A DNA stretch of 64,000 bases from Actinomadura sp. DC4 (GTDB lineage: Bacteria > Actinomycetota > Actinomycetes > Streptosporangiales > Streptosporangiaceae): the NCBI RefSeq assembly GCF_030406325.1, contig NZ_JAUEQY010000024.1, positions 62,001-126,000 on the forward strand, in the 5' to 3' direction. Position 1 is the first letter of the stretch. Each line of letters starts with the position of its first letter. The translations under genes were made by a program, and so were the position numbers. Shown here piece after piece: positions 4,901 to 63,252 of this stretch. The notes under the pieces were generated by a model that ran no database searches, was not told the DNA's origin, and saw only the letters and a program-made list of their open reading frames with translations.

Positions 4901-6388
4901 TCAGAGGCCCGGACCTCCGGGCGGGACGACCGGCAGCCCCGGCGGGGGACCGGACTCGATCAGCCGGGTCAGGGCGGCCGTGTCGAGGTGGTGTTCGACC
5001 AGGTCGCCGAGGGCGTCGAGCTGCGCCTCCCGCAGCGCCGCGAAGTCGGTGTCGGGGGCGGGCGTGAACTCGGACCCGGCCGTACGGGCGACGTCGGCGA
5101 GGAACGCGCGGCGGAAGCCGTCGTTCTCCAGCGCTCCGTGCCACGTCGTCCCCCACACCGCGCCGGAGCGGCAGCCGTCCAGGAACGGTTCGCCGCCCTC
5201 GACCGCCGCCACGCCGTGGTGGATCTCGTACGCGTGCACCGTCTCCCCGTACGCCGAGCCCGACGGGCGGCGCAGGGTCTTCGTCGGCGCGAACTCCACC
5301 CGTACGGGCAGCAGGCCGAGCCCGGGCACGGCGCCCGCGAGCGACTCGACGTCGTCCAGGATCTCCCGCGCGAGCATCTGGTAGCCGCCGCAGATCCCGA
5401 GCACCGGCCGTCCCGCGCGGGCGCGGCGGACGATCGCTTTGGCCAGGCCGCGCTCGTGCAGCCACCCCAGGTCGGCGACGGTGGCGCGCGAGCCGGGCAG
5501 GATGACCAGGTCGGCGTCGGCGAGCCCGCCCGGCGTCGTCGTGTACGACACGCTCACGCCGGGCTCGGCGGCCAGGGCGTCGACGTCGGTGAAGTTGGAG
5601 ATCCGCGGCAGCCGTACGACCACGACGCGCAGCGCCGCCCCGTCGGCGGGCGCCGGCCGGCGGGAGTCGAGCGCGAGGGAGTCCTCGACGTCCAGGCCGA
5701 GCCCCTCCAGCCAGGGCAGGACGCCATACACGGGCCGGCCGGTCAGCGCGGTGATCTGGGCCAGCCCGGGGGCGAGCAGCTCGGGCGCGCCACGGAACTT
5801 GTTGATCACGAAACCGGCCAGCAGCCGCTGGTCGGCGGGCTCCAGCAGCCCGACCGTGCCGTACAGGGCGGCGAACACCCCGCCCCGGTCGATGTCGCCG
5901 ACCACGATCACGGGCAGCTCGGCGGCGCGCGCCAGCCCCATGTTCGCCAGGTCGCCGGCCCGCAGGTTGATCTCGGCCGGGCTACCGGCGCCCTCGCAGA
6001 TCACCACGTCGTACTCCGCGCGCAGCTTGGCCAGGCTCGTCGCCACCACCTCGCGGAGCCGGGCCTTGTGCGCGCCATACCCCATCGCGTCCACCTCGGC
6101 GACCGGATGGCCGAGCACGACCACCTGGCTGCGCCGGTCGCTGCCCGGCTTGAGCAGGACGGGGTTCATGTGGGCGGACGGCTCGACGCGGGCGGCGGCG
6201 GCCTGCATGACCTGCGCCCGGCCGACCTCGGCCCCGTCGGCGGTGACCATCGAGTTGAGCGACATGTTCTGCGCCTTGAACGGCGCCACGCGTACGCCCT
6301 GACGCGCCAGCCACCGGCACAGCCCGGCGGTCAGCACGCTCTTGCCCGCGTCCGAGGTCGTCCCCGCGACCAGCAGCGCGCCGTTCAC
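4901..6388 (-). CDS. cobQ: Cobyric acid synthase (glutamine-hydrolysing)
   Basis: The 495-residue enzyme amidates adenosylcobyrinic a,c-diamide at positions b, d, e and g, using glutamine and ATP. The N-terminal synthetase domain has the CobQ P-loop GTTSDAGKS (residues 9-17), followed by KAQNMSLNS and [13 protein letters not shown] class I glutamine amidotransferase domain follows, with the nucleophile elbow GICGGYQML (Cys333) and a C-terminal histidine in YEIHHG. The length is normal for CobQ. Its start overlaps the cobD stop by 4 bases, so translation is probably coupled. Confidence 0.96.
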
Positions 6389-7278
6389 CGGCGGACCGCG
6401 AGGCGCGCGCCGGCGGCGAGAAGAGCCGAGGCGAGGGTCACCGCGCGGGACAGCCGTACGGCGCGGCGGATGTCGCCGGGCTCCGGCGCGCGGCCGTCGC
6501 CGAGTTCGGGCCGGTACTCGGTCCGCGTGCCGTACACGTTGACCCCGCCGAGCCGTACGCCGAGCGCGCCGGCGAACGCGGCCTCGCAGCGCCCGGCGTT
6601 CGGGCTGGGGTGCCGGGCGCCGTCACGGCGCAGCACGCGGTACGCCGCGCGCGGTGAACCGCCGGCGAGCGGCGCGCACGCGACGGTCAGCAGACCGGTG
6701 ACCCGTGCGGGGACCCAGTTGGCCACGTCGTCCGTACGCGCGGCGGCCCAGCCGAAGCGCTCGTAGCGGGAACTGCGATGTCCGACCATGGCGTCGAGGG
6801 TATTGATCGCGCGGTACGCGGCCAGCCCGGGCGCCCCGAACGCGGCGCCCCAGAGCAGGGGAGCGACGGCGGCGTCGGAGGTGTTCTCGGCGATCGACTC
6901 GACGGTGGCGCGGGCGAGTTCCTTCTCATCCAGCGCGGACGGGTCGCGCCCGCACAGGTGCGGCAGCCGCGCGCGGGCGGCCTCGATGTCGCCGGACTCC
7001 AGCGACCGGCCCATCGCCAGGCCCTCGCGCGCGAGCGAGGTGCCGCCGAGGACGGCCCAGGTGACGAGGGCCGTACGGCGGCGGGCGGCGACGCCGACCG
7101 CGGCGGCGCCGAGCACGCAGAGGCCCGCGAAGACCGCGCCGCGCGTACGGGAGTCGGCGTACAGACGGCGCTCCAGCGCACCCGCCGCACGCCCGAAGGC
7201 GGCCACCGGATGCCCCCGCCGCGGATCACCGGCCAGCGCGTCCAGCGCCACCCCCGCCAGCAGCCCCGTTTCGATCAT
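6385..7278 (-). CDS. cobD: Adenosylcobinamide-phosphate synthase, CobD/CbiB family
   Basis: This 297-residue integral membrane protein matches CobD/CbiB, which attaches aminopropanol (phosphate) to adenosylcobyric acid. Landmarks are [19 protein letters not shown] near the N terminus, [19 protein letters not shown] in the middle, [34 protein letters not shown], and [23 protein letters not shown]. These are the family's conserved charged loops. It sits between a DUF1707 gene and cobQ, overlapping each by 4 bases. Unlike the other two cobalamin loci here, no cobalamin riboswitch precedes this trio. Confidence 0.95.
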
Positions 7279-12120: not shown

Positions 12121-12290
12121 CGACGGCGAGGGAAGGAACCCGGTGAGAGTCCGGGGCTGTCCCGCAACTGTGATCAGGTAGCGGCCCGCGAGCACGGCCA
12201 CGGCGAGAGCCGGAAGGCCGCGGGTGGCGCCGGTTCCCGACGGACCGGCACCGCGCGACGACCTGAGAGTCAGGAGACTTCCCGCTGTCG
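12121..12290 (+). promoter_or_regulatory. Cobalamin riboswitch upstream of cobN
   Basis: The leader has the cobalamin aptamer landmarks in order: GGAACCCGGTGAGAGTCCGG, GGGCTGTCCCGCAACTGTGA, AGCCGGAAGGCC and the B12-box-like GAGTCAGGAGACTT. The closing stem pairs the region 12121-12135 with 12278-12290. Binding of adenosyl- or methylcobalamin normally switches the downstream gene off. GGGAAG of the 5' closing strand is repeated exactly in the cobN ribosome site (12325-12330), so CTTCCC at 12278-12283 could pair with either. Confidence 0.95.
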
Positions 12291-36924: not shown

Positions 36925-37932
36925 ATGAAGCGTCCGACGATCGCGGACATCGCTCAGCGGGCCGGGGTCACCAAGAGCACGGTCTCGTTCGCGTTGAACG
37001 ACCGTCCCGGAGTGTCGGACGCGACCCGCACGCGCATCCTCGACATCGCCCAGGAGATGGGCTGGCAGCCGAGCCGTGCGGCGCGTGCCCTGTCCGGCGG
37101 GCGCGCCGGCGTGCTCGGCCTCGTCGTCGACCGCCCGGCGAGGACGCTCGGCATCGAGCCGTACTTCATGCAGCTCATCTCCGGCATCGAGGGCGCGCTG
37201 TCCAGCCTCGACATCGCGCTGCTGCTCCAGGTCACCGCGGACGCCGCCGCGCAGCAGGCGACGTACCGCCGCTGGTGGGCCGAGCGGCGCGTCGACGGGG
37301 TGTTCGTCGTCGACCTGGGCGTGGACGACGAGCGTACGAAGGTGCTCGCCGAACTCGGCATGCCGGCGATCGTCGTCGGCGGCCCGCAGGGGCTGAACGA
37401 CCTGCCGGGGCTGTGGAACGACGAGCGCGCGGCCGTACGCGCGGTGGTGGAGTACCTCGTCGCGCTGGGCCACCGCCGCATCGCGCGGGTGGCCGGGCTG
37501 CCGGGGCTGTGGCACACGGTGATGCGCGAGGAGGCGTTCGAGGAGGCCGCGCGGGAGCTGGGCGTGACGGCGTCGGGCGGCACCACGGACTACACCGGCG
37601 ACGCGGGCGCCCGTACGACGCGGCGGCTGCTGTCGTCCCCGGAGCCGCCGACCGCGATCGTGTACGACAACGACGTCATGGCCGTCGCGGGCCTGGCCGT
37701 CGCGGCCGAGATGAACATCCGCGTTCCGGACCGCCTGTCCATCGTGGCCTGGGACGACTCGGTGCTGTGCCGCCTGGTCCACCCACCGCTGACGGCGGTG
37801 AGCCTGGACATCGCGGCGTACGGGGCCGAGGTCGCGCGGCGGCTGGTGGAGCTGGCGGCGGGCCGCCCGGTCGAGAGCGAGTGCCACGCGACGCCGGTGC
37901 TGTCGCCGCGGGGGAGCACCGGGCCGGCTTAG
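36925..37932 (+). CDS. LacI family transcriptional regulator, probably of the sugar importer operon
   Basis: A 335-residue LacI/GalR protein. The N-terminal helix-turn-helix PTIADIAQRAGVTKSTVSFALNDRPGVSDATRTRILDIAQEMGW includes the hinge-entry region, followed by a periplasmic-binding-protein-like sugar sensor (VLGLVVDRPARTLGIEPYFMQLISGIEGAL to LSIVAWDDSVLCRLVHPPLTAVSLD). Such regulators bind palindromes with a central CG, as found upstream of this gene and at the importer promoter 1.3 kb downstream. The inducer is probably a mannoside, judged from the target operon. Confidence 0.92.
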   Translation: MKRPTIADIAQRAGVTKSTVSFALNDRPGVSDATRTRILDIAQEMGWQPSRAARALSGGRAGVLGLVVDRPARTLGIEPYFMQLISGIEGALSSLDIALLLQVTADAAAQQATYRRWWAERRVDGVFVVDLGVDDERTKVLAELGMPAIVVGGPQGLNDLPGLWNDERAAVRAVVEYLVALGHRRIARVAGLPGLWHTVMREEAFEEAARELGVTASGGTTDYTGDAGARTTRRLLSSPEPPTAIVYDNDVMAVAGLAVAAEMNIRVPDRLSIVAWDDSVLCRLVHPPLTAVSLDIAAYGAEVARRLVELAAGRPVESECHATPVLSPRGSTGPA

Positions 37933-38471
37933 GCGGTCCACTCGTCGGCGAGCAGGGCCCAGACCTCCGTGTCGTGGAGGCCGCCGCGGAGGGGGAACGA
38001 CGCGCGCAGCACGCCCTCGCGCGTCATCCCGAGGCGGCGGGCCACCGCCTTGCTCGCCTCGTTGGCCGGCAACGTACGCCACTCCACGCGTGTCATGCCG
38101 CGCTCGACGACCGCCCAGTCGATCATGTGGCGCGCCGCCGTGGTGATCAGGCCGCGGCCCCGCGCCTCCGGTGAGAGCCAGACGCCGACCTCGCACGTAC
38201 GGGAGCGCGTGTCGAAGACGCGGAACAGCGTGCCCCCGGACAGCACGCCGCCGACCCAGATCCCGTAGAGCCGCCCCTCGTCGCGGGCCTGCCGGTCGGC
38301 GTAGGACTGCAGCCACCGCCGCGCGCTGTCAGCGTCGTTGACGACCTCGACCCAGGGTAGCCAGGGCGCCAGGTGTTCGCGCGAACGGTCGGCGTGGGCG
38401 GAGAACTCCTCCGCGTGCCAGGGCTCCAGCGGACGCAGCTCCGCGTCGTCGGCGAGGGGGTGAGCGAACAT
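37929..38471 (-). CDS. GNAT N-acetyltransferase (RimJ/RimL type)
   Basis: A 180-residue acetyltransferase: LRPLEPWHAEEFSAHADRSREHLAPWLPWV at the N terminus as in RimJ/RimL. The acetyl-CoA loop is VGVWLSPEARGRGLITTAARHMIDWA, then EWRTLPANEASKAVARRLGMTREGVLR. It may acetylate ribosomal protein N termini or small amines. Its stop overlaps the LacI stop by 4 bases, and the gene lies between regulator and importer operon on the opposite strand, so it is unlikely to belong to the sugar pathway. Confidence 0.88.
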   Translation of the reverse strand: MFAHPLADDAELRPLEPWHAEEFSAHADRSREHLAPWLPWVEVVNDADSARRWLQSYADRQARDEGRLYGIWVGGVLSGGTLFRVFDTRSRTCEVGVWLSPEARGRGLITTAARHMIDWAVVERGMTRVEWRTLPANEASKAVARRLGMTREGVLRASFPLRGGLHDTEVWALLADEWTA

Positions 38472-50869: not shown

Positions 50870-51018
50870 TGCTCTGGCGTAATGCGGAGGAACCCGGTGA
50901 GACTCCGGGGCTGTCGCGCAACTGTGACCGGGAAGCCCATCCTCAGTGACGGCCACGGCGTGAGCCGGAAGGCCGAGGACGGGTGTCGATCCGGGAGCCA
51001 GGAGACTCCGGCCGCCGA
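50870..51018 (+). promoter_or_regulatory. Cobalamin riboswitch upstream of the corrin operon
   Basis: Landmarks in order: GGAACCCGGTGAGACTCCGG, GGGCTGTCGCGCAACTGTGA, GAGCCGGAAGGCC and the B12-box-like GAGCCAGGAGACTCC. An outer stem can pair GGCG...GGAG (from 50876) with CTCC...CGCC (to about 51017). It precedes the chelatase gene start by 50 bases. Cobalamin should repress the whole downstream operon. Confidence 0.95.
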
Positions 51019-51067: not shown

Positions 51068-53095
51068 GTGAACACCTACCCGTTCTCCGCCGTCGCGGGT
51101 CTTGAGGACCTGAAGCTCGCTCTGCTGATCAACGCGGTCTCGCCATCGGTCGGCGGCGTGCTGGTGCGGGGGGAGAAGGGCACCGCCAAGTCGACCGTCG
51201 TACGGGCGCTCGCCGCGCTGCTGCCCGGCGTCGCCGTGATCGGGGCCTGCCGGTTCTCCTGCGACCCCGGCGCGCCCGACCCCGAATGCCCGGACGGCCC
51301 GCACGACACGGCCGAGACCGAGGTCCGCCCGGCCCGGCTCGTCGAGCTTCCCGTCGGCGCGTCCGAGGACCGCCTCGTCGGCTCCCTCGACATCGAGCGG
51401 GCGCTCACCGAGGGCGTACGCGCCTACCAGCCGGGCCTGCTCGCCGCCGCCCACCGCGGCCTGCTCTACGTGGACGAGGTCAACCTCCTGCACGACCACC
51501 TCGTCGACCTCCTGCTCGACGCCGCCGCGATGGGCCAGTCCTACGTCGAGCGCGAGGGCGTCTCGATCCGGCACGCCTCGCGGTTCCTGCTGGTCGGCAC
51601 GATGAACCCCGAGGAGGGCGAGCTACGCCCGCAGCTCCTCGACCGCTTCGGGCTGACCGCCGAGGTCGCGGCCACGCGTGACCCGGACGAACGCGCCCAG
51701 GTCGTACGCCGCCGGCTCGCCTACGAGGCCGACCCCGCGCGGTTCGCGGCCGAATGGGCCCGCGCCGACGCCGAGCTGGCCTGGCACATCGGCCAGGCGC
51801 GCGACCGCCTGGCCGGCGTCGTGCTGTCCGACGGCGCGCTGCGGCAGATCACCGCGGTGTGCGCCGAGTTCGAGGTCGACGGGCTGCGGGCCGACCTGGT
51901 GATGGCCCGCGCCGCCATCGCGCTGGCCGCCTGGTACGACCGCGGCGCCGTCACACCCGCGGACGTACGCCTCGCCGCGCGCCTGGCACTGCCGCACCGG
52001 CGCCGCCGCGATCCCTTCGACGCCCCCGGCCTCGACGAGGACAAGCTCGACGACATCCTGGAGCGCACGGGCGACTACGACACCGAAGAGGACACCCCGC
52101 CCGGCGGCGAGCAGCCCGTGCCCGCCCCCCGCCCGCCCGACGACGCGGAGGAGACCGTCGAGGACCCGGACCTCGACCCGGAGCCGGACGGACCCGGCCC
52201 GGGCGCAGGACCCGAAGGCGAGCAGTCCTCGGGCGAGGGCGCCCTGGTCGACATCGGCCAGGCGCTGTCCGGCGGCGGCGAGAGCGCGGGCGAGGCGAAA
52301 CCCTCACCGGCCGACGCCGCCTACCGCCCCCGGCTCTTCGTCGTCCCGGGCATCGGCGAGGGCGCCCCGGGCCGCCGGTCACGCTCGCGCACCCCGTACG
52401 GCCGCACCACCGGCGCCCGCGCGGGCTCCCGCACCGTGCACCTCACCGGCACCCTGTTCGCCGCCGCCCCGCACCAGCGGGCGCGCGGCCGCAGCGGACC
52501 CGGGCTGGTCATCCACGCCGACGACATCCGCGAGCCGGTACGCGAGGGCCGTGAGGGCAACCTCGTCCTGTTCGTGGTCGACGCGAGCGGCTCGATGGCG
52601 GCGCGGCAGCGCATGCGCGCGGTCAAGGGCGCCGTCCTCAGCCTGCTGCTCGACGCCTACCAGAGGCGCGACAAGGTCGGCCTGATCACCTTCCGCGGCA
52701 CCTCGGCCGAGACGGCGCTGCCGCCGACCTCCTCGGTCGAGGCCGGCGCGCGCCGTTTGGAGGACCTGCCGACCGGCGGCCGTACGCCGCTCGCCGCCGG
52801 CCTGCTGCGGGCCGCCGGCGTCCTGCGCGCCGAGCACCTCCGCGACCCCGCACGCCGTCCGCTCGTGGTCGTCGTGACCGACGGCCGGGCGACGCACGGC
52901 TCGGTCGACGACGCGCTGCGCGCCGCCGGGCTGCTGCGCGACGCCGCCTCTGTCGTGGTCGACTGCGAGAGCGGCCCGGTGCGCCTCGGCCTCGCCGTGC
53001 GGCTCGCCGAGCACCTCGGCGCCGAGACGGTGCGTCTGGAGGACCTGCCGGCCGACGGGCTCGCCGGCGTCGTACGGGATCGGAGGGTGGCCTGA
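51068..53095 (+). CDS. Fused ChlI-ChlD-like ATPase subunit of cobaltochelatase
   Basis: A 675-residue protein. The N-terminal AAA+ module has Walker [10 protein letters not shown] (about 36-44) and [23 protein letters not shown], with ChlI-type cysteines in [15 protein letters not shown] long acidic, proline-rich linker (about 340-430) follows, then a von Willebrand A domain with MIDAS motif [13 protein letters not shown] near 503. This BchI/BchD fusion powers metal insertion by CobN in actinomycetes in place of separate CobS and CobT. GTG at 51068 follows the riboswitch. The stop overlaps cobO (TGATG). Confidence 0.92.
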
Positions 53096-53697
53096 TGCCC
53101 CAGGGCAAGCCGGACAGCGTGCCGGACGACGGCCTGACCACGCGGCAGCGGCGCAACCGCCCGCTCGTGATCGTCCACACCGGCACGGGCAAGGGCAAGT
53201 CGACCGCCGCCTTCGGGCTGGCGCTGCGCGGCTGGAACCAGGGCTGGCCGATCGGGGTCTTCCAGTTCGTCAAGTCGGCCAAGTGGCGCATCGGCGAGGA
53301 ACGCGCGCTGCGCGTCCTCGGCGACTCCGGCGAGGGCGGCCGGGTCGACTGGCACAAGATGGGCGAGGGCTGGTCGTGGATCCAGCGGCCCGGTAGCGAG
53401 GAGGACCACGCGGCGGACGCCCGCGAGGGCTGGGAGCAGATCAAGCGCGATCTCGCCGCCGAGACCTACACCCTGTACGTCCTGGACGAGTTCACCTACC
53501 CGATGAAGTGGGGCTGGGTGGACGTCGACGACGTCGTGGAGACTCTCACCGCGCGGCCGGGCCACCAGCACGTGATCGTCACCGGCCGCGACGCCGACCC
53601 GCGCCTCGTCGGGATCGCCGACCTGGTCACCGAGATGGACAAGGTCAAGCACCCGATGGACGCCGGTCAGAAGGGGCAGAAGGGCATCGAGTGGTGA
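53095..53697 (+). CDS. cobO: Cob(I)yrinic acid a,c-diamide adenosyltransferase
   Basis: A 200-residue CobO/BtuR/CobA-type enzyme with the P-loop HTGTGKGKST (28-37), FQFVKSAKWRIGEERAL, and YVLDEFTYPMKWGWVDVDDVVETL, followed by HQHVIVTGRDADPRLVGIADLVTEMDKVKHP. It transfers the adenosyl group of ATP to Co(I) of the corrin to form the Co-C bond. It is translationally coupled on both sides (TGATG and GTGA overlaps). Confidence 0.96.
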   Translation: MPQGKPDSVPDDGLTTRQRRNRPLVIVHTGTGKGKSTAAFGLALRGWNQGWPIGVFQFVKSAKWRIGEERALRVLGDSGEGGRVDWHKMGEGWSWIQRPGSEEDHAADAREGWEQIKRDLAAETYTLYVLDEFTYPMKWGWVDVDDVVETLTARPGHQHVIVTGRDADPRLVGIADLVTEMDKVKHPMDAGQKGQKGIEW

Positions 53698-55019
53698 CCC
53701 CGCGGCTCGTGATCGCCGCGCCCGCGTCGGGCAGCGGCAAGACGACCGTCGCCACCGGGCTGATCGCGGCGCTGACCGCGCAGGGCCTCGACGTCTCCCC
53801 GCACAAGGTCGGCCCCGACTACATCGACCCCGGCTACCACGCGCTCGCGGCCGGGCGGCCGGGCCGCAACCTCGACCCGTGGCTGACCTCGGAGGAGCTC
53901 GTCGCGCCGCTGTTCCTGCACGGCGCGCGCGACGCCGACCTCGCCGTCGTCGAGGGCGTCATGGGCCTGTACGACGGCGCCGCGGGCGCCGGCGAGTTCG
54001 CCTCGACCGCGCACGTCGCCAAGCTGCTCGCCGCGCCGGTCGTGCTCGTCGTGGACGCGGCCTCGGCGGGCCGGTCCGTGGCCGCGCTCGTGCACGGTTT
54101 CGTCACCTACGACCCTGGCGTGCGGATCGGCGGCGTCATCCTCAACCGCGTCGGCTCCGACCGGCACGAGGAGATCTGCCGCGCGGCGATCGAGGAGACC
54201 GGCCTGCCGGTCCTCGGCGTGCTGCGCCGTACCGGCGACGCCGCGACGCCCTCGCGCCACCTGGGCCTGATCCCGGCCGCGGAGCGGCGCCCCGAGGCCC
54301 TCGCGACCGTCGACCGTCTCGGCGCGCTCGTCGCCGGCTCCTGCGACCTGCGGGCCCTCGTCGCCCTGGCGCACACGGCCGGCCCTCTCACGGCGGAGCC
54401 GTGGGACCCGGCCGCCGCCGTCACCGCCCCGGAGGGCGGGCCGCGGATCGCGGTCGCCGGCGGCGCGGCCTTCACCTTCGGCTACGCCGAGAACGAGGAG
54501 CTCCTGGCCGCGGCCGGGGCCGAGGTCGTACGGTTCGACCCGCTCCGCGACACCACGCTGCCACCCGGCACCGGCGGCGTCGTGATCGGCGGGGGGTTCC
54601 CCGAGACGTACGCCGCCGAGCTGTCGGCCAACGAGCCGCTGCGGCGGGCCGTCGCGGCCTTCGAGGGGCCGATCTACGCCGAGTGCGCCGGCCTGTTGTA
54701 TCTTTCCCGCCGGCTCGACGACGCCCCGATGTGCGGCGTCCTGGACGCGGAGGCGCGGATGACCGGCAGGCTCACGCTGGGCTACCGCGAGGCGGTCGCG
54801 GTACGCGACTCACCGGTGGCGCGCGCGGGCGAGCGGGTCCGCGGGCACGAGTTCCACCGTACGGTCGTGGCGCGCGGGACCGGCGCCGAACCGGCCTGGC
54901 AGTGGTCCGCCGAGGGACCGGACGGATTCACCTCGGCGAATTGCCTTGCCTCCTACCTCCATCTCCACTGGGCTGGGATGCCTCAGATGGCAACGCGTTT
55001 CGTGGGGGCGGCCGCATGA
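53694..55019 (+). CDS. cobB: Cobyrinic/hydrogenobyrinic acid a,c-diamide synthase
   Basis: A 441-residue CobB/CbiA enzyme. The N-terminal synthetase has the P-loop APASGSGKTT (9-18), KVGPDYIDPGYHALAAGRPGRNLDPWL and VEGVMGLYDGA, and the C-terminal glutamine amidotransferase domain has IYAECAGLLYLSR (nucleophile Cys) and GHEFHRT. It amidates the a and c side chains using glutamine and ATP. GTG at 53694 overlaps the cobO stop. The late-pathway position suits the CobN chelatase route. Confidence 0.95.
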   Translation: MTPRLVIAAPASGSGKTTVATGLIAALTAQGLDVSPHKVGPDYIDPGYHALAAGRPGRNLDPWLTSEELVAPLFLHGARDADLAVVEGVMGLYDGAAGAGEFASTAHVAKLLAAPVVLVVDAASAGRSVAALVHGFVTYDPGVRIGGVILNRVGSDRHEEICRAAIEETGLPVLGVLRRTGDAATPSRHLGLIPAAERRPEALATVDRLGALVAGSCDLRALVALAHTAGPLTAEPWDPAAAVTAPEGGPRIAVAGGAAFTFGYAENEELLAAAGAEVVRFDPLRDTTLPPGTGGVVIGGGFPETYAAELSANEPLRRAVAAFEGPIYAECAGLLYLSRRLDDAPMCGVLDAEARMTGRLTLGYREAVAVRDSPVARAGERVRGHEFHRTVVARGTGAEPAWQWSAEGPDGFTSANCLASYLHLHWAGMPQMATRFVGAAA

Positions 55020-55549
55020 CTTTCGACGAGGGTGTTCTGCTGGAGACCGAGCGGCTGCTGCTGCGGCCCTTCGAGGAGGGCGACGCCGAAGACGTCTACC
55101 TCTCCAGCCAGGACCCGGAGATCCGCCGCTGGATGCCGTGGGCGTCGGCGCAGACCAGGCAGACCGCCATCGACTGGTGCACGGCCCACGCGCACCCGGA
55201 CCCGGCGCGGGCGATGAACTTCGCCATCGTCGCCGGTGACCGGTTCGCCGGGTCGATCGGCATCGGCCGTACGGACTGGACGGACGGCCGCGCCGAGGTG
55301 GGTTACTGGATCTCGCCGTGGGCGCGCCGCAAGCGGTACGCCGTGGAGGCGACGCGCGGGCTCGCCGCGTACGCCTTCGAGAAGGGGATGCACCGGGTCG
55401 AGCTGCTCACGGCGGTCACCAATTTCGCCTCCCAGGGGGTCGCCGAGAAGGCCGGGTTCACCCGGGAGAGCGTCCTGCGCGAGGCGATGCTCATCAGCAC
55501 CGGGCGCGTCGACGCCGTCCTGTTCAGCCTCCTGTCGAGCGATCTGTGA
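55016..55549 (+). CDS. GNAT N-acetyltransferase inside the corrin operon (copy 1)
   Basis: A 177-residue RimJ/RimL-type acetyltransferase: LLETERLLLRPFEEGDAEDVYLSSQDPEIRRWMPWA, then EVGYWISPWARRKRYAVEATRGLAAYAF and ELLTAVTNFASQGVAEKAGFTRESVLREA. ATGA overlap with cobB and TGATG overlap with the next GNAT gene show it is fully embedded in the coupled operon. Its closest visible relative is that next gene. A role in cobalamin synthesis is not known; protein or amine acetylation is possible. Confidence 0.9.
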   Translation: MTFDEGVLLETERLLLRPFEEGDAEDVYLSSQDPEIRRWMPWASAQTRQTAIDWCTAHAHPDPARAMNFAIVAGDRFAGSIGIGRTDWTDGRAEVGYWISPWARRKRYAVEATRGLAAYAFEKGMHRVELLTAVTNFASQGVAEKAGFTRESVLREAMLISTGRVDAVLFSLLSSDL

Positions 55550-56088
55550 TGGGCGGTCTCGAGCCCGTCACGTTGCGCACCGAGCGGCTGACGCTCCGGC
55601 CGCCCGTGCCCGCCGACGCCGACGACGCCTTCGCGGCCGTGGACCAGGTGGTCCAGCGGTGGATGCCCTGGGCGGTCGGGTACACCCGCGACAAGGCGCG
55701 GCAGTGGTGCACCGAGGAGGCGTACCGCGACCCGCTCCGCGAGGCCAACTTCACCATCGTGCCGGACCGTACCGGCCGGTTCGGGGGCGTGATCGGCATC
55801 AGCAGGGCCGACTGGGAGAGCGGCGTGGCCGAGACCGGCTACTGGCTGGGCCCCGCCGACCGGCGCCACGGTTACGCCACCGAGGCCGTACGCGAGGTGG
55901 CCCGCCACGCCTTCGGGCTCGGCCTCCACCGCCTCGAACTGCTCGCCGCCACCGGCAACCTCGCCTCACAGCGGGTCGCCGAGCGGGCCGGCTTCACCCG
56001 CGAGGGCGTCCTCCGGAGCGCGCGGTACCTCCCCGGCGGCGTCCGCGCCGACATGGTGATCTTCAGCCTGCTGCGGGGGGAGCTGTGA
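55549..56088 (+). CDS. GNAT N-acetyltransferase inside the corrin operon (copy 2)
   Basis: A 179-residue paralogue of the preceding gene: LRTERLTLRPPVPADADDAFAAVDQVVQRWMPWAVG, AETGYWLGPADRRHGYATEAVREVARHAF and ELLAATGNLASQRVAERAGFTREGVLRSARYLPGG. The two proteins share the TERLxLRP, RWMPWA, GYW and GFTRExVLR blocks, indicating tandem duplication. The upstream stop overlaps its ATG, and its own stop overlaps the cobI GTG. Function unknown. Confidence 0.9.
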   Translation: MGGLEPVTLRTERLTLRPPVPADADDAFAAVDQVVQRWMPWAVGYTRDKARQWCTEEAYRDPLREANFTIVPDRTGRFGGVIGISRADWESGVAETGYWLGPADRRHGYATEAVREVARHAFGLGLHRLELLAATGNLASQRVAERAGFTREGVLRSARYLPGGVRADMVIFSLLRGEL

Positions 56089-56804
56089 GGCTCGTCGGCG
56101 TCGGGGTCGGCCCGGGCGACCCCGAGCTGGTCACCGTCAAGGCGGTCCGCGTGCTGCGCGAGGCCGACCTCGTCCTCGTCCCGGTCATGGCGCCCGGCGA
56201 GCAGGGCCGCGCCGAGGCCGTCGTACGCGCCCACGTCGACGCGGCCGAACGCGTCGTCTTCGCGCTGAACGACCGCGGCGGCGTCACCGAGCGCCGCGCG
56301 AACGCCTGGTCGGCCGCCGCGGACCGCGTCGCACGCGCCTTCGAGGAGGGCGCGGCCACGGTCGCCTTCGCCACCATCGGCGACCCGAACCTCTACTCCA
56401 CCTTCACCTACCTCGCCCAGGCCGTACGCGGCCGGACGCCGGGCGTCGCGGTCGAGACCGTGCCGGGCGTCACCGCCATGCAGGACCTGGCCGCGCGGTC
56501 CGGGACCGTCCTCGCCGAGGGCACCGAGTCACTGTCGCTGCTGCCGCTCACCGGCGGCACCGCCGGCCTGCGCGCCGCGCTGGCGAGCGGCGACACGGTC
56601 GTCGCCTACAAGTTCGGCCAGGTCGCCGGCGAGGTGCTGGCCGCGGTCGCCGAGGCCGGCCGGCTGGACGAGGCGGTGTACGGCGCGCGGCTCGGCCTGC
56701 CCGGCGAGGACGTCCGGCGGGCCGCCGAGATCGCCGGGCCGGTGCCGTACCTGTCGACCCTGATCGTGCCCGGCCGCCGTACGGGCCTGGGCGGGAAACT
56801 GTGA
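56085..56804 (+). CDS. cobI: Precorrin-2 C20-methyltransferase
   Basis: A 239-residue SAM-dependent tetrapyrrole methylase: GVGVGPGDPELVTVKAVRVLREADLVLVPVM start, ATIGDPNLYSTFTYLAQ, ETVPGVTAMQDLAARSG and the final VPYLSTLIVPGRR. The GDPNLYSTF signature separates CobI/CbiL from other methylases. It methylates C20 of precorrin-2 (or cobalt-factor II). The start is GTG at 56085 within the previous stop (GTGA). Confidence 0.94.
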   Translation: MRLVGVGVGPGDPELVTVKAVRVLREADLVLVPVMAPGEQGRAEAVVRAHVDAAERVVFALNDRGGVTERRANAWSAAADRVARAFEEGAATVAFATIGDPNLYSTFTYLAQAVRGRTPGVAVETVPGVTAMQDLAARSGTVLAEGTESLSLLPLTGGTAGLRAALASGDTVVAYKFGQVAGEVLAAVAEAGRLDEAVYGARLGLPGEDVRRAAEIAGPVPYLSTLIVPGRRTGLGGKL

Positions 56805-57613
56805 GCGAGGGAGAGGCCATGGACGGCCGGGTGGTGTTCGTCGGTGCCGGCCCCGGAGCCGCCGACCTGCTGACGTTCCGCGCCGCGAAGGCGATCGCCG
56901 AAGCGGACGTCGTGATCTGGGCGGCCAGCCTCGTGCACGAGGACGTCCTCCAGCACGCGAGCGCCGATGCGGAGATCGTCGACTCGGCGCGGCTGCCGAT
57001 GGAGGGCGTGCTGCCCTACTACGAGCGCGCCGCCGCCGAGGGACTCACCGTCGCCCGGATCCACTCCGGCGACCCGGCGCTGTGGGGCGCGCTGCAGGAA
57101 CAGCTCGACCGCTGCCACGAGCTCGGCCTCGCCACCGAGATCATCCCCGGCGTGTCGAGCTTCTCCGCGGTCGCCGCCGCGGCCGGCCGCGAGCTGACCA
57201 TCCCCGAGGTCGCCCAATCGGTGATCCTCACGCGCCTGGGCGGCGGCAAGACGCCGATGCCGCCCGGCGAGGAGGTGCGGGAGTTCGCCCGGCACGGCAC
57301 GACGATGGCGCTGTTCCTGTCGGCGGCCCGGTCCCGTCAGCTCCAGGAGGAGCTGCTGGAGGGCGGCTACCCGCCCGGCACGCCGTGCGTCGTCGCGTAC
57401 CAGTGCACGTGGCCGGAGGAGCTGATCGTCTCCTGCCGTCTCGACGAGCTGGCCGACACCGTGCGGGCGCACAAGCTGTGGAAGCACACGCTCGTCCTGG
57501 TCGGCCCGGCGCTGGAGGCGGGCGGCACGCGCTCGCACCTCTACCACCCCGGTCACTTCCACGGTCACCGGCGTGCCGAGCCCGGGGCGCGGAAGGTGCT
57601 CCGGGGTGGCTGA
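56801..57613 (+). CDS. cobM: Precorrin-4 C11-methyltransferase
   Basis: Up to 270 residues. The methylase N terminus VVFVGAGPGAADLLTFRAAKAI is followed by VVIWAASLVHEDVLQHA, RIHSGDPALWGALQEQ, EIIPGVSSFSAVAAAAGRELTIPEVAQSVILTRLGG and ARHGTTMALFLSA, all CobM/CbiF hallmarks. It methylates C11 of precorrin-4. GTG at 56801 overlaps the cobI stop by 4 bases. An in-frame ATG at 56819 with GGGAG 5 bases upstream is a strong alternative start. Confidence 0.95.
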   Translation: MSEGEAMDGRVVFVGAGPGAADLLTFRAAKAIAEADVVIWAASLVHEDVLQHASADAEIVDSARLPMEGVLPYYERAAAEGLTVARIHSGDPALWGALQEQLDRCHELGLATEIIPGVSSFSAVAAAAGRELTIPEVAQSVILTRLGGGKTPMPPGEEVREFARHGTTMALFLSAARSRQLQEELLEGGYPPGTPCVVAYQCTWPEELIVSCRLDELADTVRAHKLWKHTLVLVGPALEAGGTRSHLYHPGHFHGHRRAEPGARKVLRGG

Positions 57614-58757
57614 CCGGCCCTACGAACCCGACCTGCCGCGCACCATGAAGGTGCGCCAGAAGGCGCTGCGCACCGGCTGGACCACGGGCACCTGCGCCTC
57701 GGCGGCGGCCAAGGCGGCCACCGAGGCCCTGACCTCCCAGCGGCCTCAGGACGTGGTCGAGGTGGCGCTGCCGTCGGGGCGGCGAGTGACGTTCGCCGTT
57801 GATTCGTGCCTGATCCGCGCCGACCGGGCCGAGGCAGTGGTGATCAAGGACGCGGGCGACGATCCTGACGTGACGCACGGTGCCCGGCTGACCGCGACCG
57901 CCTCATGGCGGCCCGAACCCGGCATCGAGCTCGACGGCGGAATCGGCGTCGGCGTCGTCACCAAGCCCGGCCTCGGCCTGGACCTGGGCGGCCCGGCGAT
58001 CAATCCGGTGCCGCGCAAGATGATCGAACAGGCAGTGGGGGAGTCGGTGGATCTGAAGACGCGGGGCGTACGTGTCGTCATCTCGGTGCCCGATGGGGAG
58101 ACGATGGCGCGCAAGACGACCAACAAACGGCTCGGCATCCTTGGCGGGATCTCGATCCTGGGCACGACCGGCATCGTGCGCCCGTTCTCGACGGCGTCGT
58201 GGCGGGCGAGCGTGGAGCAGGCGGTGGCGGTGATGGCCGCCCAGGGTGAGAAGACGCTCGTCCTGTGCACGGGGGGCCGGACCGAGAAGGGCGCCATGCG
58301 GCTGCTGCCGCAGCTGCCCGGCGTCTGCTTCGTCGAGGTCGGCGACTTCACCGGCGCGGCGCTGCGGCGCGCGGTGGAGCACGGCGTCCGGCAGGTGGTG
58401 TTCGTCGGCATGGCGGGCAAGCTCACCAAGCTCGCCTCCGGCGTGCTCATGACGCACTACACGCGCTCGCGCGTCGACACCGCCCTGCTCGCCGAGATCA
58501 CCACGTCGATGGGCGGGTCGGAGGAGCTGGCCGGGCAGGTGGCCGAGGCCAACACGGCGCGGCACGCGTACGAGCTGTGGGAGGCCGGAGGGCTGCTCGG
58601 CCGCGCCGGGCGCGAGCTGTGCCGGCGGGTCGCCGGGGTCCTGGAGCAGTTCGCCGCCGAGGCCGCGCCGGAGAGCCCGGGCATCGCCGCACAGGTCGTG
58701 CTGGTCGACTTCACCGGGCAACGGATGATCGCGATGTACGGGCGGCTCGGCCGATGA
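57606..58757 (+). CDS. cbiD: Cobalt-precorrin-5B C1-methyltransferase
   Basis: A 383-residue CbiD: LRTGWTTGTCASAAAKAATEAL at the N terminus, IKDAGDDPDVTHGARLTATAS, GIGVGVVTKPGLGLDLGGPAINPVPRKMI, and GISILGTTGIVRPFSTASWRASVEQAV. CbiD methylates C1 during ring contraction of the anaerobic-type route; the aerobic route uses CobF instead. GTG at 57606 overlaps the cobM stop by 8 bases. It shows that the pathway here is a mixture of cbi- and cob-type genes. Confidence 0.95.
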   Translation: MADRPYEPDLPRTMKVRQKALRTGWTTGTCASAAAKAATEALTSQRPQDVVEVALPSGRRVTFAVDSCLIRADRAEAVVIKDAGDDPDVTHGARLTATASWRPEPGIELDGGIGVGVVTKPGLGLDLGGPAINPVPRKMIEQAVGESVDLKTRGVRVVISVPDGETMARKTTNKRLGILGGISILGTTGIVRPFSTASWRASVEQAVAVMAAQGEKTLVLCTGGRTEKGAMRLLPQLPGVCFVEVGDFTGAALRRAVEHGVRQVVFVGMAGKLTKLASGVLMTHYTRSRVDTALLAEITTSMGGSEELAGQVAEANTARHAYELWEAGGLLGRAGRELCRRVAGVLEQFAAEAAPESPGIAAQVVLVDFTGQRMIAMYGRLGR

Positions 58758-59929
58758 TCACGGTCGTCGGCTGCGACGGGTCGCCGTTGCCGCAGCGGGC
58801 GATGGACCGCCTCGGCGCCGCCGTCCTCGTCGCCGGCGGCCGGCGGCACCTGGAGGCGGTACGCCCGCCCGCGCACGTACGCCAGGTCGTCATGGGCGAC
58901 GTCGCGGCGGCGCTGGACGCCGTCGAGGCGTCCGCCGACGACGGGGTGGTCGTGCTGGCGAGCGGCGACCCGGGGTTCTTCGGGATCGTCCGCGCGCTGC
59001 GCGAGCGCGGCCACGCGCCCGAGGTGCTACCCGCGGTCTCCTCGGTGGCCGGGGCGTTCGCCCGGATCGGGCTGCCGTGGGACGACGTCGTGGTGACGAG
59101 CGCGCACGGCCGCGACCCGCGCACGGCGGTGAACGCCTGCCGGGCGATGGCCAAGACCGCGGTGTTCACCGCGCCCGGCTTCGGGCCCGCGGCGCTCGGC
59201 GCGGAGCTCGCCGGCTGGGACCGTACGCTCCACGTCGCCGAGCGCCTGGGTGGTCCGGACGAGCGCGTCACCCGGTGCACGCCGGCCGAGGCGGCGGCCC
59301 GCGACTGGGCCGAGCCGAACGTCGTCCTCGCCGTACGAGAAGGTGCTCTGGGGGCTCCCGCACGGCGGCACAACCAGCCCGCGTCGCCGCCGCGCACCCA
59401 CTCCGGCGACTCGTACCGGCACCGCGCCGGGATGATCACCAAGTGGGAGGTGCGCGCGGTCGCCCTGGCCCGGCTGCGGCCGACCCTGGGCATGCTCGTC
59501 TGGGACGTCGGCGCGGGCAGCGGCTCGGTCGGCATCGAGTGCGCCGAACACCACGCGGCCGTCATCGCGATCGAGCGCGACCCGGCGGCGCGTGATCTCA
59601 TCCGCCACAACGCGGGCACGGCGGACGTCCGCGTCGTGGCGGAGAGCGCGCCGGAGGCCTTCGACGGACTGCCCGACCCCGATGCCGTCTTCGTCGGCGG
59701 CGGGGGCCTGGAGGCGCTGAGCGGCGTGCTGGCGCGTGGTCCGAAGACGGTCGTGGCGACGTACGCCGCCGTCGACCGGGCCGCCCTGGCCCGCCGCCTG
59801 ATGGCCGACGCCGGCTACGCGGTGGAGGGCGGGCAACTGTCCGCCGCGCGCTTCGCCGACCTGCCGGGCGGCTCGTTCCGCCTCGACGCGCAGAACCCGG
59901 TGTTCCTGCTGGCGGGGAGCGCGTCATGA
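58754..59929 (+). CDS. cobL: Precorrin-6Y C5,15-methyltransferase (decarboxylating), CbiE-CbiT fusion
   Basis: A 391-residue fusion. The CbiE-like half (1 to about 205: ITVVGCDGSPLP, VVLASGDPGFFGIVRALRER, PAVSSVAGAFARIGLPWDDVVVTSAHGRD) methylates C5. The CbiT-like half (from about 225: MITKWEVRAVALARLRPTLGMLVWDVGAGSGSVGIE) methylates C15 and decarboxylates. ATGA overlap with cbiD. Length matches fused CobL. Confidence 0.95.
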   Translation: MITVVGCDGSPLPQRAMDRLGAAVLVAGGRRHLEAVRPPAHVRQVVMGDVAAALDAVEASADDGVVVLASGDPGFFGIVRALRERGHAPEVLPAVSSVAGAFARIGLPWDDVVVTSAHGRDPRTAVNACRAMAKTAVFTAPGFGPAALGAELAGWDRTLHVAERLGGPDERVTRCTPAEAAARDWAEPNVVLAVREGALGAPARRHNQPASPPRTHSGDSYRHRAGMITKWEVRAVALARLRPTLGMLVWDVGAGSGSVGIECAEHHAAVIAIERDPAARDLIRHNAGTADVRVVAESAPEAFDGLPDPDAVFVGGGGLEALSGVLARGPKTVVATYAAVDRAALARRLMADAGYAVEGGQLSAARFADLPGGSFRLDAQNPVFLLAGSAS

Positions 59930-61644
59930 TCGGAGTCGTCGCCGCGACGGCGAGCGGCCGTACCGCCGCCGAGGCGCTGCGGGCCGCCTGGCCGGACGAG
60001 GTGCGGCTGCTGACCGGGCAGAAGGCCGCCGACGCCCTGCGTGAGGCGTGGCGCACCTGCGACGCCGTGGTCAGCTTCCTCGCCGTCGGCGCGACCGTAC
60101 GCGTGCTCGCGCCGCTTCTGGGCCACAAGAGCACCGACCCGGCGGTCGTGTGCGTGGACGAGTCGATGGCCTTCGCGGTGGCCGTGCTCGGCGGCCACCA
60201 CGGCGCGAACCTCCTCGCCCGCCGCCTCACCGGCGTCCTCGGCTGCACGCCGGTGGTGACGACCGCGAGCGACCAGAGCAACGTCACGCCGCTCGACTCC
60301 TGGGGCGCCGAACTCGGCTTCACCGTCCACAACCCCGACCTCCTCGCCCACGTCGGCGCGGCGGTGCTCTCGGGCGAACCCGTGCGGCTCGACGGCGCGG
60401 AGGGCTGGCCGCTGCCGCCCCTGCCGCCGAACGTCTCGCCGCAGGCTCCCGCCGGCGGCCACCGCGTCCTCGTCACCGACCAGGCCGAGCACTCCTGCAT
60501 GTGCCACCAAGGATGGTTCGACGGCGCGCTCGTCTACCGGCCGAAGTCGCTCGTCGTGGGCGTCGGCTCGGCCCGCGGCGTCGCCGCCGGCGAGGTCGCC
60601 GCGCTGGTCGACGCGGCGCTGGCCTCCGGCGAGCTCGCCGCGGAGTCGGTGCGCTGCCTGGCCACCGCCGACCTGAAGGCCGACGAGGAGGGCATCCTCC
60701 AGGTGGCCCGCGAACGCGGCTGGCCGGTCGTCACCCACCCCGCCGCCGCCCTCGCCGCCGTCGACGTGCCCAACCCGTCGGAGGTCGTACGCGCCGAGGT
60801 CGGCACGCCCAGCGTCGCCGAGGCCGCCGCGCTGCTGTCGGCCGGCGGCGGCGCGCTGGTCGTCCCCAAGCACAAGTCGGCGAACGCCACCGCGGCCGTC
60901 GCCCGGCTCCGCCCGCGCGGGCGGCTGTCGATCGTCGGCCTCGGCCCGGGCGCGCGCGACCTGCTCACGCCCCGGGCCGTGACCGCGCTCCAGCGATCGT
61001 CGGTGGTCGTCGGCCTGGACCAGTACGTCTCCCAGGTACGCGACCTCCTCCGCCCCGGCACGCGCGTGCTCGCCTCCGGCCTGGGCCAGGAGGAGGAACG
61101 GGCGCGTACGGCGGTCGAGGAGGCCACCGCGGGCCATGCCGTCGCGCTGATCGGCTCCGGCGACGCGGGGGTGTACGCCATGGCGAGCCCGGCCCTGGAG
61201 TTCGCCGGCCCCGGCATCGACGTCGAGGGCGTGCCCGGCATCACCGCGGCGGTGGCCGCGTCCGGGCTCCTGGGCGCGCCGCTCGGCCACGACCACGCCT
61301 ACATCTCCCTGTCGGACCTGCACACGCCGTGGGAGGTCATCGAGCGCCGCGTGACCGCCGCGGCCGAGGGCGACTTCACGGTGTGCTTCTACAACCCGCG
61401 CAGCCGCGCCCGCGCCTGGCAGCTCGGCCGGGCGCTGGGCATCCTGGCCGGGCACCGCCCGCCGTCGACACCGGTCGGATTCGTCCGCAACGCCGCCCGT
61501 ACGGACGAGAGCGTGACGCTGACGACGCTCGCGGAGTTCGACCCCGCGGCGGTCGACATGTTCACCGTCGTGGTCGTGGGATCGAGCCGCAGCCGCACGG
61601 TGGCGGGGCGTTTCGTCACCCCCAGGGGGTACCGATGGGCCTGA
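59926..61644 (+). CDS. cobJ: CbiG-CobJ fusion: cobalt-precorrin-5A hydrolase and precorrin-3B C17-methyltransferase
   Basis: A 572-residue two-domain enzyme. The CbiG-like part (1 to about 325) has FLAVGATVRVLAPLLGHKSTDPAVVCVDE, LGGHHGANLLARRLTGVLG and VGSARGVAAGEVAALV, and opens the lactone ring. From about 333, LSIVGLGPGARDLLTPRAVTAL, IGSGDAGVYAMASPALEF and VEGVPGITAAVAASGLLGAPLGHD are CobJ/CbiH. An extra segment EHSCMCHQGWFDGALVYRPKS (188-208) lies in the CbiG linker. ATGA overlap with cobL. Ring contraction is therefore coded by one chain. Confidence 0.93.
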   Translation: MIGVVAATASGRTAAEALRAAWPDEVRLLTGQKAADALREAWRTCDAVVSFLAVGATVRVLAPLLGHKSTDPAVVCVDESMAFAVAVLGGHHGANLLARRLTGVLGCTPVVTTASDQSNVTPLDSWGAELGFTVHNPDLLAHVGAAVLSGEPVRLDGAEGWPLPPLPPNVSPQAPAGGHRVLVTDQAEHSCMCHQGWFDGALVYRPKSLVVGVGSARGVAAGEVAALVDAALASGELAAESVRCLATADLKADEEGILQVARERGWPVVTHPAAALAAVDVPNPSEVVRAEVGTPSVAEAAALLSAGGGALVVPKHKSANATAAVARLRPRGRLSIVGLGPGARDLLTPRAVTALQRSSVVVGLDQYVSQVRDLLRPGTRVLASGLGQEEERARTAVEEATAGHAVALIGSGDAGVYAMASPALEFAGPGIDVEGVPGITAAVAASGLLGAPLGHDHAYISLSDLHTPWEVIERRVTAAAEGDFTVCFYNPRSRARAWQLGRALGILAGHRPPSTPVGFVRNAARTDESVTLTTLAEFDPAAVDMFTVVVVGSSRSRTVAGRFVTPRGYRWA

Positions 61645-61826
61645 GTCCCGTACGGGTCACCTCCCGCTGCACGGGCTGCGGCGCGTGCCTGCTGACCTGC
61701 CCCGAGCGTGCCCTGCGTCCTTACACCGGCTGGACGGAGAGCCCGCTGTACGTCCTGGCGGACCGCTGCACCGGATGCGGTGACTGCGTCGAGGTCTGCC
61801 CCGCGGATGCGATCGAGGAGAAATGA
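61635..61826 (+). CDS. Small 2x[4Fe-4S] ferredoxin
   Basis: A 63-residue protein with two CxxCxxCxxxC motifs (CTGCGACLLTCP and CTGCGDCVEVCP), each binding a [4Fe-4S] cluster. It overlaps the cbiG-cobJ stop by 10 bases and the cobH start by 4. In this operon it could donate electrons for corrin ring reduction, cobalt reduction before adenosylation or a [4Fe-4S] step replacing CobG. That role is inferred from position only. Confidence 0.93.
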   Translation: MGLSPVRVTSRCTGCGACLLTCPERALRPYTGWTESPLYVLADRCTGCGDCVEVCPADAIEEK

Positions 61827-62410
61827 GAACCATCCACCCGATTGAGACGAGGTCGCTGGAGATCCTGCGCTCGCGCGTCGACCTCACCTCGATGCCTCCC
61901 CTCAGCCGGGCCGTCGCCGAGCGCGTGATCCACGCCAGCGCCGACCTGGAGTACGCCACCGACCTCGTCACCGACGAGGCTCACCTGCGGCAGGGCCTGC
62001 GGGCGCTGCGCGACGGTGCCCCGATCGTCACCGACGTCGCGATGGTCGCCGCCGGGATCACCACGAGGTCGGCGATCTGCTCGATCGGCGACCCGGCGGT
62101 CGCGGCGCTGGCGAAGGAGCAGGACCTGACGCGGTCCGCGGCGGCGGTGCGGCTGTCCTACGTCAAGTCGGGGCCGGGCGCGGTGTGGGTCGTCGGCTGT
62201 GCCCCGACCGCGCTGGAGGAGATCATCGAGTGCGGCGTGGGCCCGGCGCTGGTCATCGGCCTGCCGGTCGGTTTCGTGGGGGCCGCCGAGTCGAAGGCGG
62301 CACTGCGCGAGAGCGGCCTGCCCGCCGTCAGCAACGTGTCGGAGAAGGGCGGCTCGGCAGTGGCCGCGGCCGCCGTGAACGCCCTGCTCTACCACGGGGG
62401 AGAGGCATGA
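61823..62410 (+). CDS. cobH: Precorrin-8X methylmutase
   Basis: A 195-residue CobH/CbiC: LSRAVAERVIHASADLEYATDL contains the catalytic histidine (His37), then GAPIVTDVAMVAAGIT, ICSIGDPAVAALAKEQDLTRSAAAVRL, and the closing LVIGLPVGFVGAAESKAALRESGLPAVSNVSEKGGSAVAAAAVNAL. It moves a methyl group from C11 to C12 to make (cobalt-)hydrogenobyrinate. ATGA overlaps on both sides. Confidence 0.96.
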   Translation: MRTIHPIETRSLEILRSRVDLTSMPPLSRAVAERVIHASADLEYATDLVTDEAHLRQGLRALRDGAPIVTDVAMVAAGITTRSAICSIGDPAVAALAKEQDLTRSAAAVRLSYVKSGPGAVWVVGCAPTALEEIIECGVGPALVIGLPVGFVGAAESKAALRESGLPAVSNVSEKGGSAVAAAAVNALLYHGGEA

Positions 62411-63252
62411 CGCCGCTGCTGCTGGTCGGGCATGGGACGCGTGACGAGGCGGGCGTCGCGGAGTTCGCCCGTTTCGCCGAGCGTCTGCGCGCCCGGCTGC
62501 CCGTGGACGTGGCGGGCGGTTTCATCGAACTGTCCCCGCCCCCGCTGACCGACGCCGTCGCCGAGCTGTACGCCGCCGGCCACCGCCACGTCGCCGCCGT
62601 GCCCCTCGTGCTCGTCGCCGCCGGGCACGCCAAGGGCGACATGCCCGCCGCGCTCGCCCGCGAGCGGGAGCGCCACCCCGGGCTCACCTACGCGTACGGC
62701 CGGCCGCTCGGCCCGCACCCCACCCTGCTCGCGCTCCTGGAAGAGCGACTGGACGCCGTGCTGGACCGGGCCGACCGCGCCGACACCGCCGTGCTGCTGG
62801 TCGGCCGCGGCTCCACCGACCCGGACGCCAACGCCGAGGTCTGCAAGGCCGCGCGGCTGCTCTGGGAGGGGCGCGGCCTGGCCATGGTCGAGACCGCCTT
62901 CGTCTCCCTCGCGAGGCCGGGCGTGCCCGAGGGCCTCGAACGCTGCCGGCTCCTGGGCGCGGAGCGGATCGTCGTCCTGCCCTACTTCCTGTTCCCCGGC
63001 GTCCTGCCCGACCGCGTCGTCGCCGAGGCGCGGTCCTACGAGGGCGCCGAGGTGCGCTGCGCCGAGGTGATCGGCGACTGCGACGGCCTGGCCGACCTCG
63101 TGGTCGAGCGCTACGAGGAGGCCCTGCACGGCGACATCCGGATGAACTGCGACTCCTGCGTCTACCGCCTCCCGATGCCCGGCTTCGAGGACCGTGTCGG
63201 CGCGCCGCAGCACCCCCACCACCACCCTCACGACCATGACCATGCGCACTGA
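62407..63252 (+). CDS. cbiX: Sirohydrochlorin cobaltochelatase, CbiX long form
   Basis: A 281-residue class II chelatase: LLLVGHGTRDEAGVAEFARFAERL, AAVPLVLVAAGHAKGDMPAALARERE, LLVGRGSTDPDANAEVCKAARLLWEG and VLPYFLFPGVLPDRV. The C terminus has MxCxxC (MNCDSC) and a histidine-rich tail HPHHHPHDHDHAH. Bacillus megaterium CbiX has the same Fe-S and His-rich elements. It inserts cobalt, or iron for siroheme, into sirohydrochlorin. Its presence beside CobN is notable. Confidence 0.92.
   Translation: MTPLLLVGHGTRDEAGVAEFARFAERLRARLPVDVAGGFIELSPPPLTDAVAELYAAGHRHVAAVPLVLVAAGHAKGDMPAALARERERHPGLTYAYGRPLGPHPTLLALLEERLDAVLDRADRADTAVLLVGRGSTDPDANAEVCKAARLLWEGRGLAMVETAFVSLARPGVPEGLERCRLLGAERIVVLPYFLFPGVLPDRVVAEARSYEGAEVRCAEVIGDCDGLADLVVERYEEALHGDIRMNCDSCVYRLPMPGFEDRVGAPQHPHHHPHDHDHAH

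Follow-up and report, generated by a model that had tools for sequence, protein, structure and literature searches.

Tandem GNAT acetyltransferases in an actinomycete cobalamin operon: a possible accessory function in B12 metabolism

The pathway of cobalamin (vitamin B12) biosynthesis is regarded as worked out, and we know of no step in it that involves the transfer of an acetyl group from acetyl-CoA. What, then, could be the function of two genes for acetyltransferases of the GNAT superfamily that are embedded in a corrin operon? The question is raised by a stretch of 64,000 nucleotides (hereinafter, the window) from Actinomadura sp. DC4, a bacterium with a genome of 10.67 Mb whose nearest relatives belong to Actinoallomurus. 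The operon, all on the forward strand, is headed by a cobalamin riboswitch aptamer (50887-51008; RF00174, Rfam cmscan 75.2 bits, gathering score 31.5), which is followed by an open reading frame for a chlI/D-type chelatase subunit with AAA and VWA domains (51068-53095; Pfam AAA_lid_2, VWA_2 and Mg_chelatase; the GTG at 51068 was picked as the start because it is downstream of the aptamer), by cobO, encoding the corrinoid adenosyltransferase (53095-53697; TIGR00708, 232.6 bits, cut-off 167.75), and by cobB, encoding the a,c-diamide synthase (53694-55019; NF002204, 511.7 bits, cut-off 254). The two acetyltransferase genes, GNAT1 (55016-55549, 177 amino acids) and GNAT2 (55549-56088, 179 amino acids), come next, and the operon continues with cobI/cbiL, the precorrin-2 C20-methyltransferase gene (56085-56804; TIGR01467, 229.4 bits, cut-off 163.25), cobM/cbiF, the precorrin-4 C11-methyltransferase gene (56801-57613; TIGR01465, 313 bits, cut-off 259.65), an open reading frame that we take to be cbiD from the operon order and a look at the sequence (57645-58757), a cobL-type methyltransferase gene, presumably CbiE/CbiT given its position in the operon (58754-59929; PF00590, 75.2 bits), a CbiG-CobJ fusion (59926-61644; CbiG_N, CbiG_C and TP_methylase domains), a short, putatively ferredoxin-like open reading frame labeled from its two CxxCxxC patterns (61644-61826), cobH/cbiC, the precorrin-8X methylmutase gene (61823-62410; PF02570, 200 bits), and the cbiX chelatase gene (62407-63252; PF01903, 171 bits). 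The His-rich C-terminal tail of CbiX (63200-63252) is possibly metal-binding. Beyond the end of the window, cbiX is followed by a gene for a PLP-aminotransferase-like protein, labeled cobC by look and position, and then by cobT and cysG.

The layout at the center of the operon agrees with the preliminary description of this DNA, which had placed tandem paralogous acetyltransferases between cobB and cobI, with stop/start overlaps at every junction. GNAT1 and GNAT2 are 54% identical (query residues 5-176), CobB and CobI pass the NCBIfam equivalog cut-offs, the pair does lie inside a corrin operon, and the overlaps are ATGA between cobB and GNAT1, a single A (TGATG) between the two GNAT genes and GTGA between GNAT2 and cobI. 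These overlaps suggest that both genes are co-transcribed and co-translated with the corrin genes.

Both proteins exceed the gathering score of PF13302 (106 and 108.8 bits, respectively, cut-off 25.4), which places them in the GNAT superfamily, and the model of GNAT1 (pLDDT 96.6, pTM 0.91) has the GNAT fold, with structure-match Z scores of up to 23.3. The best solved matches of this model, all of them tied (Z 23.3-22.6), are MccE, a Vibrio RimL-like protein, RimJ of M. smegmatis and RimL, a fold relationship that suggests transfer of acetyl groups from acetyl-CoA to primary amines. The identification of either protein with RimL is rejected (NF007539 equivalog, 29.3 and 33.1 bits against a cut-off of 184), as is that of GNAT2 with BlmB (NF000483, 25.3 bits against a cut-off of 625), and both proteins are far below the AAC(6') cut-offs. 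For the fused double GNATs of some relatives (see below), the model is poorer (pLDDT 76.2), the N-domain being too weak; among the solved-structure matches of the fused profile at E<=1e-8, the mycothiol synthase MshD, which also has two domains, does not appear, although kinship is still possible.

The P-loop consensus, given as Q/R-x-x-G-x-G/A in an excerpt of PMC4964394, is fit by the RRHGYA motif of GNAT2 and not by the degenerate RRKRYA motif of GNAT1, as seen in a comparison that left out domains under 60 bits. Arginine replaces the P-loop glycine in the GNAT1 proteins of two of the eight Actinoallomurus species, the host of the window being one of the two; A. spadix is among the species in which GNAT1 retains the glycine. 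The glycine is also kept in all other cob-linked domains in the alignment (4 GNAT2, 30 single GNATs, 37 fused C-domains and 37 fused N-domains). Because GNAT1 lacks this glycine, GNAT2 appears to be the likelier active copy here, and GNAT1 may be poor at binding CoA. The catalytic pair of RimL and MccE consists, according to the same excerpt of PMC4964394, of a general acid serine (S141 and S553, respectively) and a general base glutamate (E160 and E572). All 34 domains in the alignment have the serine (column 139); the column of the base glutamate, in a loop whose alignment is not certain, holds methionine in GNAT1 and arginine in GNAT2. The glutamate of strand beta-4 (E94) is kept in all seven GNAT1 and all four GNAT2 sequences, in 29 of the 30 other single cob-linked GNATs and in 36 of the 37 fused C-domains and all 37 fused N-domains. 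Trp98 is aligned with the pocket residue Trp511 of MccE (pocket residues from an excerpt of PMC4363471), and Trp42 and Trp54, which by spacing alone would be the counterparts of Trp453 and Phe466 of MccE, may line the same pocket. Position 42 is tryptophan in all fused C-domains and Actinoallomurus sequences and mostly leucine in the other single GNATs, so that an aromatic-sandwich pocket is not a trait of the family.

Within the genus, the placement of the GNAT is invariant: the order cobB-GNAT1-cobI is found in all eight Actinoallomurus genomes, four of which also have GNAT2, one of these with a third copy. Thus, the check proposed in the preliminary description, conservation in the cob operons of relatives, came out in its favor, and absence from close relatives was not seen. 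The host genome contains 13 matches to GNAT1 at E<=0.001, and such constancy is not readily put down to chance. Elsewhere in the window, there is a third PF13302 GNAT (37929-38471, reverse strand) that is distant in sequence from the pair and located away from B12 genes. Both members of the pair are under purifying selection, with median pairwise dN/dS of 0.25 for GNAT1 (8 sequences) and 0.40 for GNAT2 (5 sequences), compared with 0.11 for cobO, 0.20 for cobB, 0.26 for cobI and 0.27 for cobH. The possibility that GNAT1 is a dying pseudogene is rejected because its dN/dS is similar to that of cobI. Purifying selection on a protein that, in two of eight species, has arginine in place of the P-loop glycine could be taken to indicate a non-catalytic regulator that would attach to a partner enzyme and serve as a reporter of CoA or acetyl-CoA; binding to a partner enzyme is the mode of action of PanZ, which also has the GNAT fold. 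We consider this explanation very improbable, given that the glycine is kept in GNAT2 and in every other cob-linked domain aligned, and that the catalytic serine and the beta-4 glutamate are nearly invariant.

At the level of the GTDB family, a relative of GNAT1 at E<=1e-25 is present in 107 of 200 genomes, and is more common in genomes with cobB (96 of 161) than in those without it (11 of 39; Fisher p 0.0006, relatedness ignored). Among the cobB places listed, which cover 148 of the 161 genomes with a cobB match, 34 of the 107 GNATs are no more than 3 kb away from cobB, invariably downstream of it and in the same orientation; another 58 are located away from the listed cobB, and for the remaining 15, no cobB is listed. 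The GNAT is missing in 65 of the 161 cobB-bearing genomes at this threshold, with cob clusters that lack it seen, for example, at loci L071, L090, L105 and L113, and no GNAT of this kind was found in eight cobB loci sampled from six other families (L143-L150). It follows that B12 synthesis does not need the GNAT, which is an accessory gene, not a requirement of the pathway, and much of the linkage between the GNAT and B12 genes may be inherited gene order.

The GNAT loci come in three ARRANGEMENTS: (i) chlI/D-cobO-cobB-GNAT-cobI and so on, as in the window; (ii) cobB-GNAT adjoining a divergent ring operon and cobO-chlI/D; and (iii) a fused double GNAT that precedes cbiX, after which come cobT and cysG in nearly all loci of sufficient length. 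In a fourth set, single GNATs are adjacent to bluB-cobT-cysG; this set looks like type (ii) after the loss of the ring genes, because one locus, L240, has both at once. In the Nocardiopsis-type loci, the Pfam scan detects a BluB-CobT fusion. To the extent that the preliminary description had tied the pair to the adjacent corrin-ring enzymes, this connection does not hold, the GNAT being found elsewhere beside cbiX-cobT-cysG or bluB-cobT-cysG. The set of neighbor queries was widened with cobT, bluB and cysG after the loci had been seen, and the same set was then run on all loci, those of the family and others. Among the best 80 named loci, counted as distinct contigs (some contigs occur twice, by genome code and by name, for example, L136/L234, L126/L219 and L160/L167), 61 have a B12 gene within 8 kb of the GNAT, namely, 60 of the 62 loci of this family, compared with 1 of the 18 loci from other families. 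The two exceptions within the family are L236, a contig of only 4.2 kb, and L180, from Allonocardiopsis opalescens. The latter species (L180 8417-9516; L132 9170-10269) has a tandem GNAT pair with one member from each of two cob-linked clades, and no B12 gene was found in this locus. The one linked locus from outside the family among these 80 comes from a Micrococcales bin (L217 1-10163), in which cbiB-GNAT-cobL is near cobO-cobB-bluB, with a cobalamin riboswitch at 5281-5418.

In a quick tree of these domains (those under 60 bits left out), where many inner branches are weak, a clade of N-domains (39 rows) is entirely B12-linked, a clade of 54 rows that contains the window GNATs includes 53 linked ones, a clade of 23 rows includes 21, and a clade of 18 rows from other families, mostly Streptomycetaceae, is entirely unlinked. 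A joint clade of Actinoallomurus GNAT1 and GNAT2, as would be expected if GNAT2 arose within the genus, was not drawn in this tree, although such a clade is not rejected (p-AU 0.61) in a test tree that left out three rows (two N-type singles and a distant GNAT of L166) and all unlinked rows except L180.

The preliminary description had also put the pair under riboswitch control. Such control is plausible for the window, where the RF00174 aptamer is upstream and on the same strand, and does not hold as a general rule. Of eight operon-type loci searched, seven are headed by a riboswitch, and the exception, L132, is a locus without any B12 gene found; none was detected in the eight fused-GNAT loci searched; and the search of eight Nocardiopsidaceae loci yielded three, in each case on the strand opposite to the GNAT, ahead of chlI/D. 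The window itself contains a second cobalamin riboswitch (12133-12280), ahead of cobN, and, on the strand opposite to this riboswitch, cobQ and cbiB (4901-7278).

There are 11 GNAT-bearing genomes without a cobB match at E<=1e-50 (G014, G017, G038, G060, G062, G066, G086, G099, G132, G133 and G164; for four of these, absence means that they are missing from the full list of positives). None of the 11 has cobI over the cut-off, which was exceeded in all five cobB-bearing genomes searched alongside (5 of 16 in total), and all 11 have a cobT match, 9 of them over the cut-off. Regarding the state of the assemblies, G038 is a single contig, G132 consists of two contigs, and G099 is only 78% complete. 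Thus, the GNAT persists where the ring genes are gone. Because these 11 genomes have neither cobB nor cobI, we reject as unlikely a role confined to the synthesis of the corrin ring; a role in the later assembly arm fits the genomes that lack the ring pathway. Two of these genomes, G132 (L151 and L152) and G086 (L153 and L138), keep cobN, chlI/D, cobO, cobQ, cbiB and cobT, with no cobB and no cobI over the cut-off, a late cobalt chelatase being retained there without the ring pathway.

Could the GNAT, nevertheless, be a neutral passenger, that is, a RimL-like enzyme of unrelated function (for example, acetylation of N-termini in general or of the antibiotic type) that became trapped in an ancestral cob cluster, where inherited gene order has kept it? 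GNATs are numerous, 17 of the 18 loci outside the family among the best 80 (Streptomycetaceae and others) are not next to B12 genes, the GNAT is missing from the 65 cobB-bearing genomes of the family mentioned above, and resistance enzymes, MccE- and BlmB-like, are among the nearest solved structures. Against this count the three arrangements next to different B12 genes (after cobB; as a fusion before cbiX-cobT-cysG; beside bluB-cobT-cysG), the tight overlaps in the genus and the survival of the GNAT after the loss of the neighboring cobB and cobI, which together amount to more than one frozen gene order, so that we regard the passenger scenario as fairly unlikely. Because B12 genes remain next to the GNAT where the locus is rearranged, where the GNAT is fused or duplicated, and where the ring pathway has been lost, the role of the GNAT is probably linked to B12, and this recurrent association points to an unrecognized accessory step or control in B12 metabolism.

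The explanation that we prefer, and to which we give an even chance, is that the pair are RimJ/RimL-type N-acetyltransferases that are accessory to the cobalamin gene set of Streptosporangiaceae-type actinomycetes and serve not the corrin ring but the later assembly arm, to which cobT/bluB, cobC and cobO belong. The acetyl group of acetyl-CoA would be transferred, in the window probably by GNAT2, to a primary amine in this arm or on one of its proteins, and the later arm would be tuned or protected as a result.

Two rival explanations name a more specific acceptor. The GNAT could acetylate the N-terminus or a lysine of CobT, CobO, CobC or CysG, with the supply of acetyl-CoA setting the activity. 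Such protein-level control would agree with the presence of the protein N-terminal acetylases RimL and RimJ among the top fold matches and with the tracking of cobT/cysG loci by the GNAT even without the ring pathway; against it, MccE and SpeG, which are small-molecule enzymes, match the fold as well or nearly so, and we know of no acetylated Cob protein. Altogether, we deem it unlikely. Alternatively, the acceptor could be L-threonine phosphate or aminopropanol (phosphate). These primary amines are made through CobC/CobD-type enzymes and go into the nucleotide loop, and N-acetylation would be a step or shunt that stores, recycles or detoxifies them. Just past the end of the window, cbiX and cobT are separated by the cobC-like aminotransferase gene. 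Among the operon-type loci, 15 of 16 were found to have cobC (11 of 12 when distinct contigs are counted), as were 9 of the 22 loci of the Nocardiopsidaceae type (8 of 20 when distinct contigs are counted), in 5 of these 8 at a distance of 221-719 bases from the GNAT. However, cobC, the source of the candidate amine, is found in only 8 of 37 fused-GNAT loci, which also speaks against the preferred explanation, most bacteria run the pathway without such a step, and no such acetylated compound is known to us, all of which makes the small-molecule step quite improbable.

More broadly, it is conceivable, if on the doubtful side, that the family has an acetyl-CoA-dependent step or switch in cobalamin metabolism, exerted via a dedicated GNAT (single, tandem or fused double) in nucleotide-loop assembly or corrinoid salvage rather than in ring synthesis, and kept after the loss of the ring. 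Our searches of the literature, which left most subscription journals out of scope, listed no study of a GNAT encoded in a cob operon. By tracking B12 genes through three arrangements, fusion and tandem duplication, and by outliving the ring pathway, the GNAT appears to mark a missing accessory function, which, if the role is true, would bear on the coupling of cofactor assembly to acetyl-CoA in actinomycetes that make B12.

The closest known systems resemble the pair in different respects. RimL and RimJ, the ribosomal-protein N-alpha-acetyltransferases of PF13302, are similar to GNAT1 in fold (Z 22.6 to RimL, 1s7l; 22.8 to M. smegmatis RimJ) and share the P-loop with GNAT2 and the general acid serine with the pair, but the column aligned with the base glutamate of RimL is not glutamate in the pair, which, furthermore, sits in B12 clusters. 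MccE, the microcin C7 self-immunity acetyltransferase, is the tied best fold match of GNAT1 (3r96, Z 23.3, 1.6 A over 166 residues), but the two are only 20% identical, the Glu572 column is not glutamate in GNAT1, and no microcin genes were noticed near the pair. The bleomycin acetyltransferase BlmB belongs to the same wider GNAT group, but GNAT2 scores far under the BlmB cut-off. Mycobacteria also have a GNAT next to cobO and cobB: Rv2851c, of the ElaA type, is presumably upstream of chlI/D-cobO-cobB and thus heads the cluster; this GNAT differs from the pair in subfamily and position. In two genomes of another family (f4; L141 3048-3515 and L142 3057), an unrelated ElaA-type GNAT, which matches NF007644 below its cut-off and is missed by the GNAT1 profile, is located directly ahead of chlI/D-cobO-cobB-cysG and is a second, independent link between GNATs and cob genes. 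Finally, the operon of the window as a whole has both its gene content and its riboswitch in common with actinobacterial cobalamin riboswitch operons.
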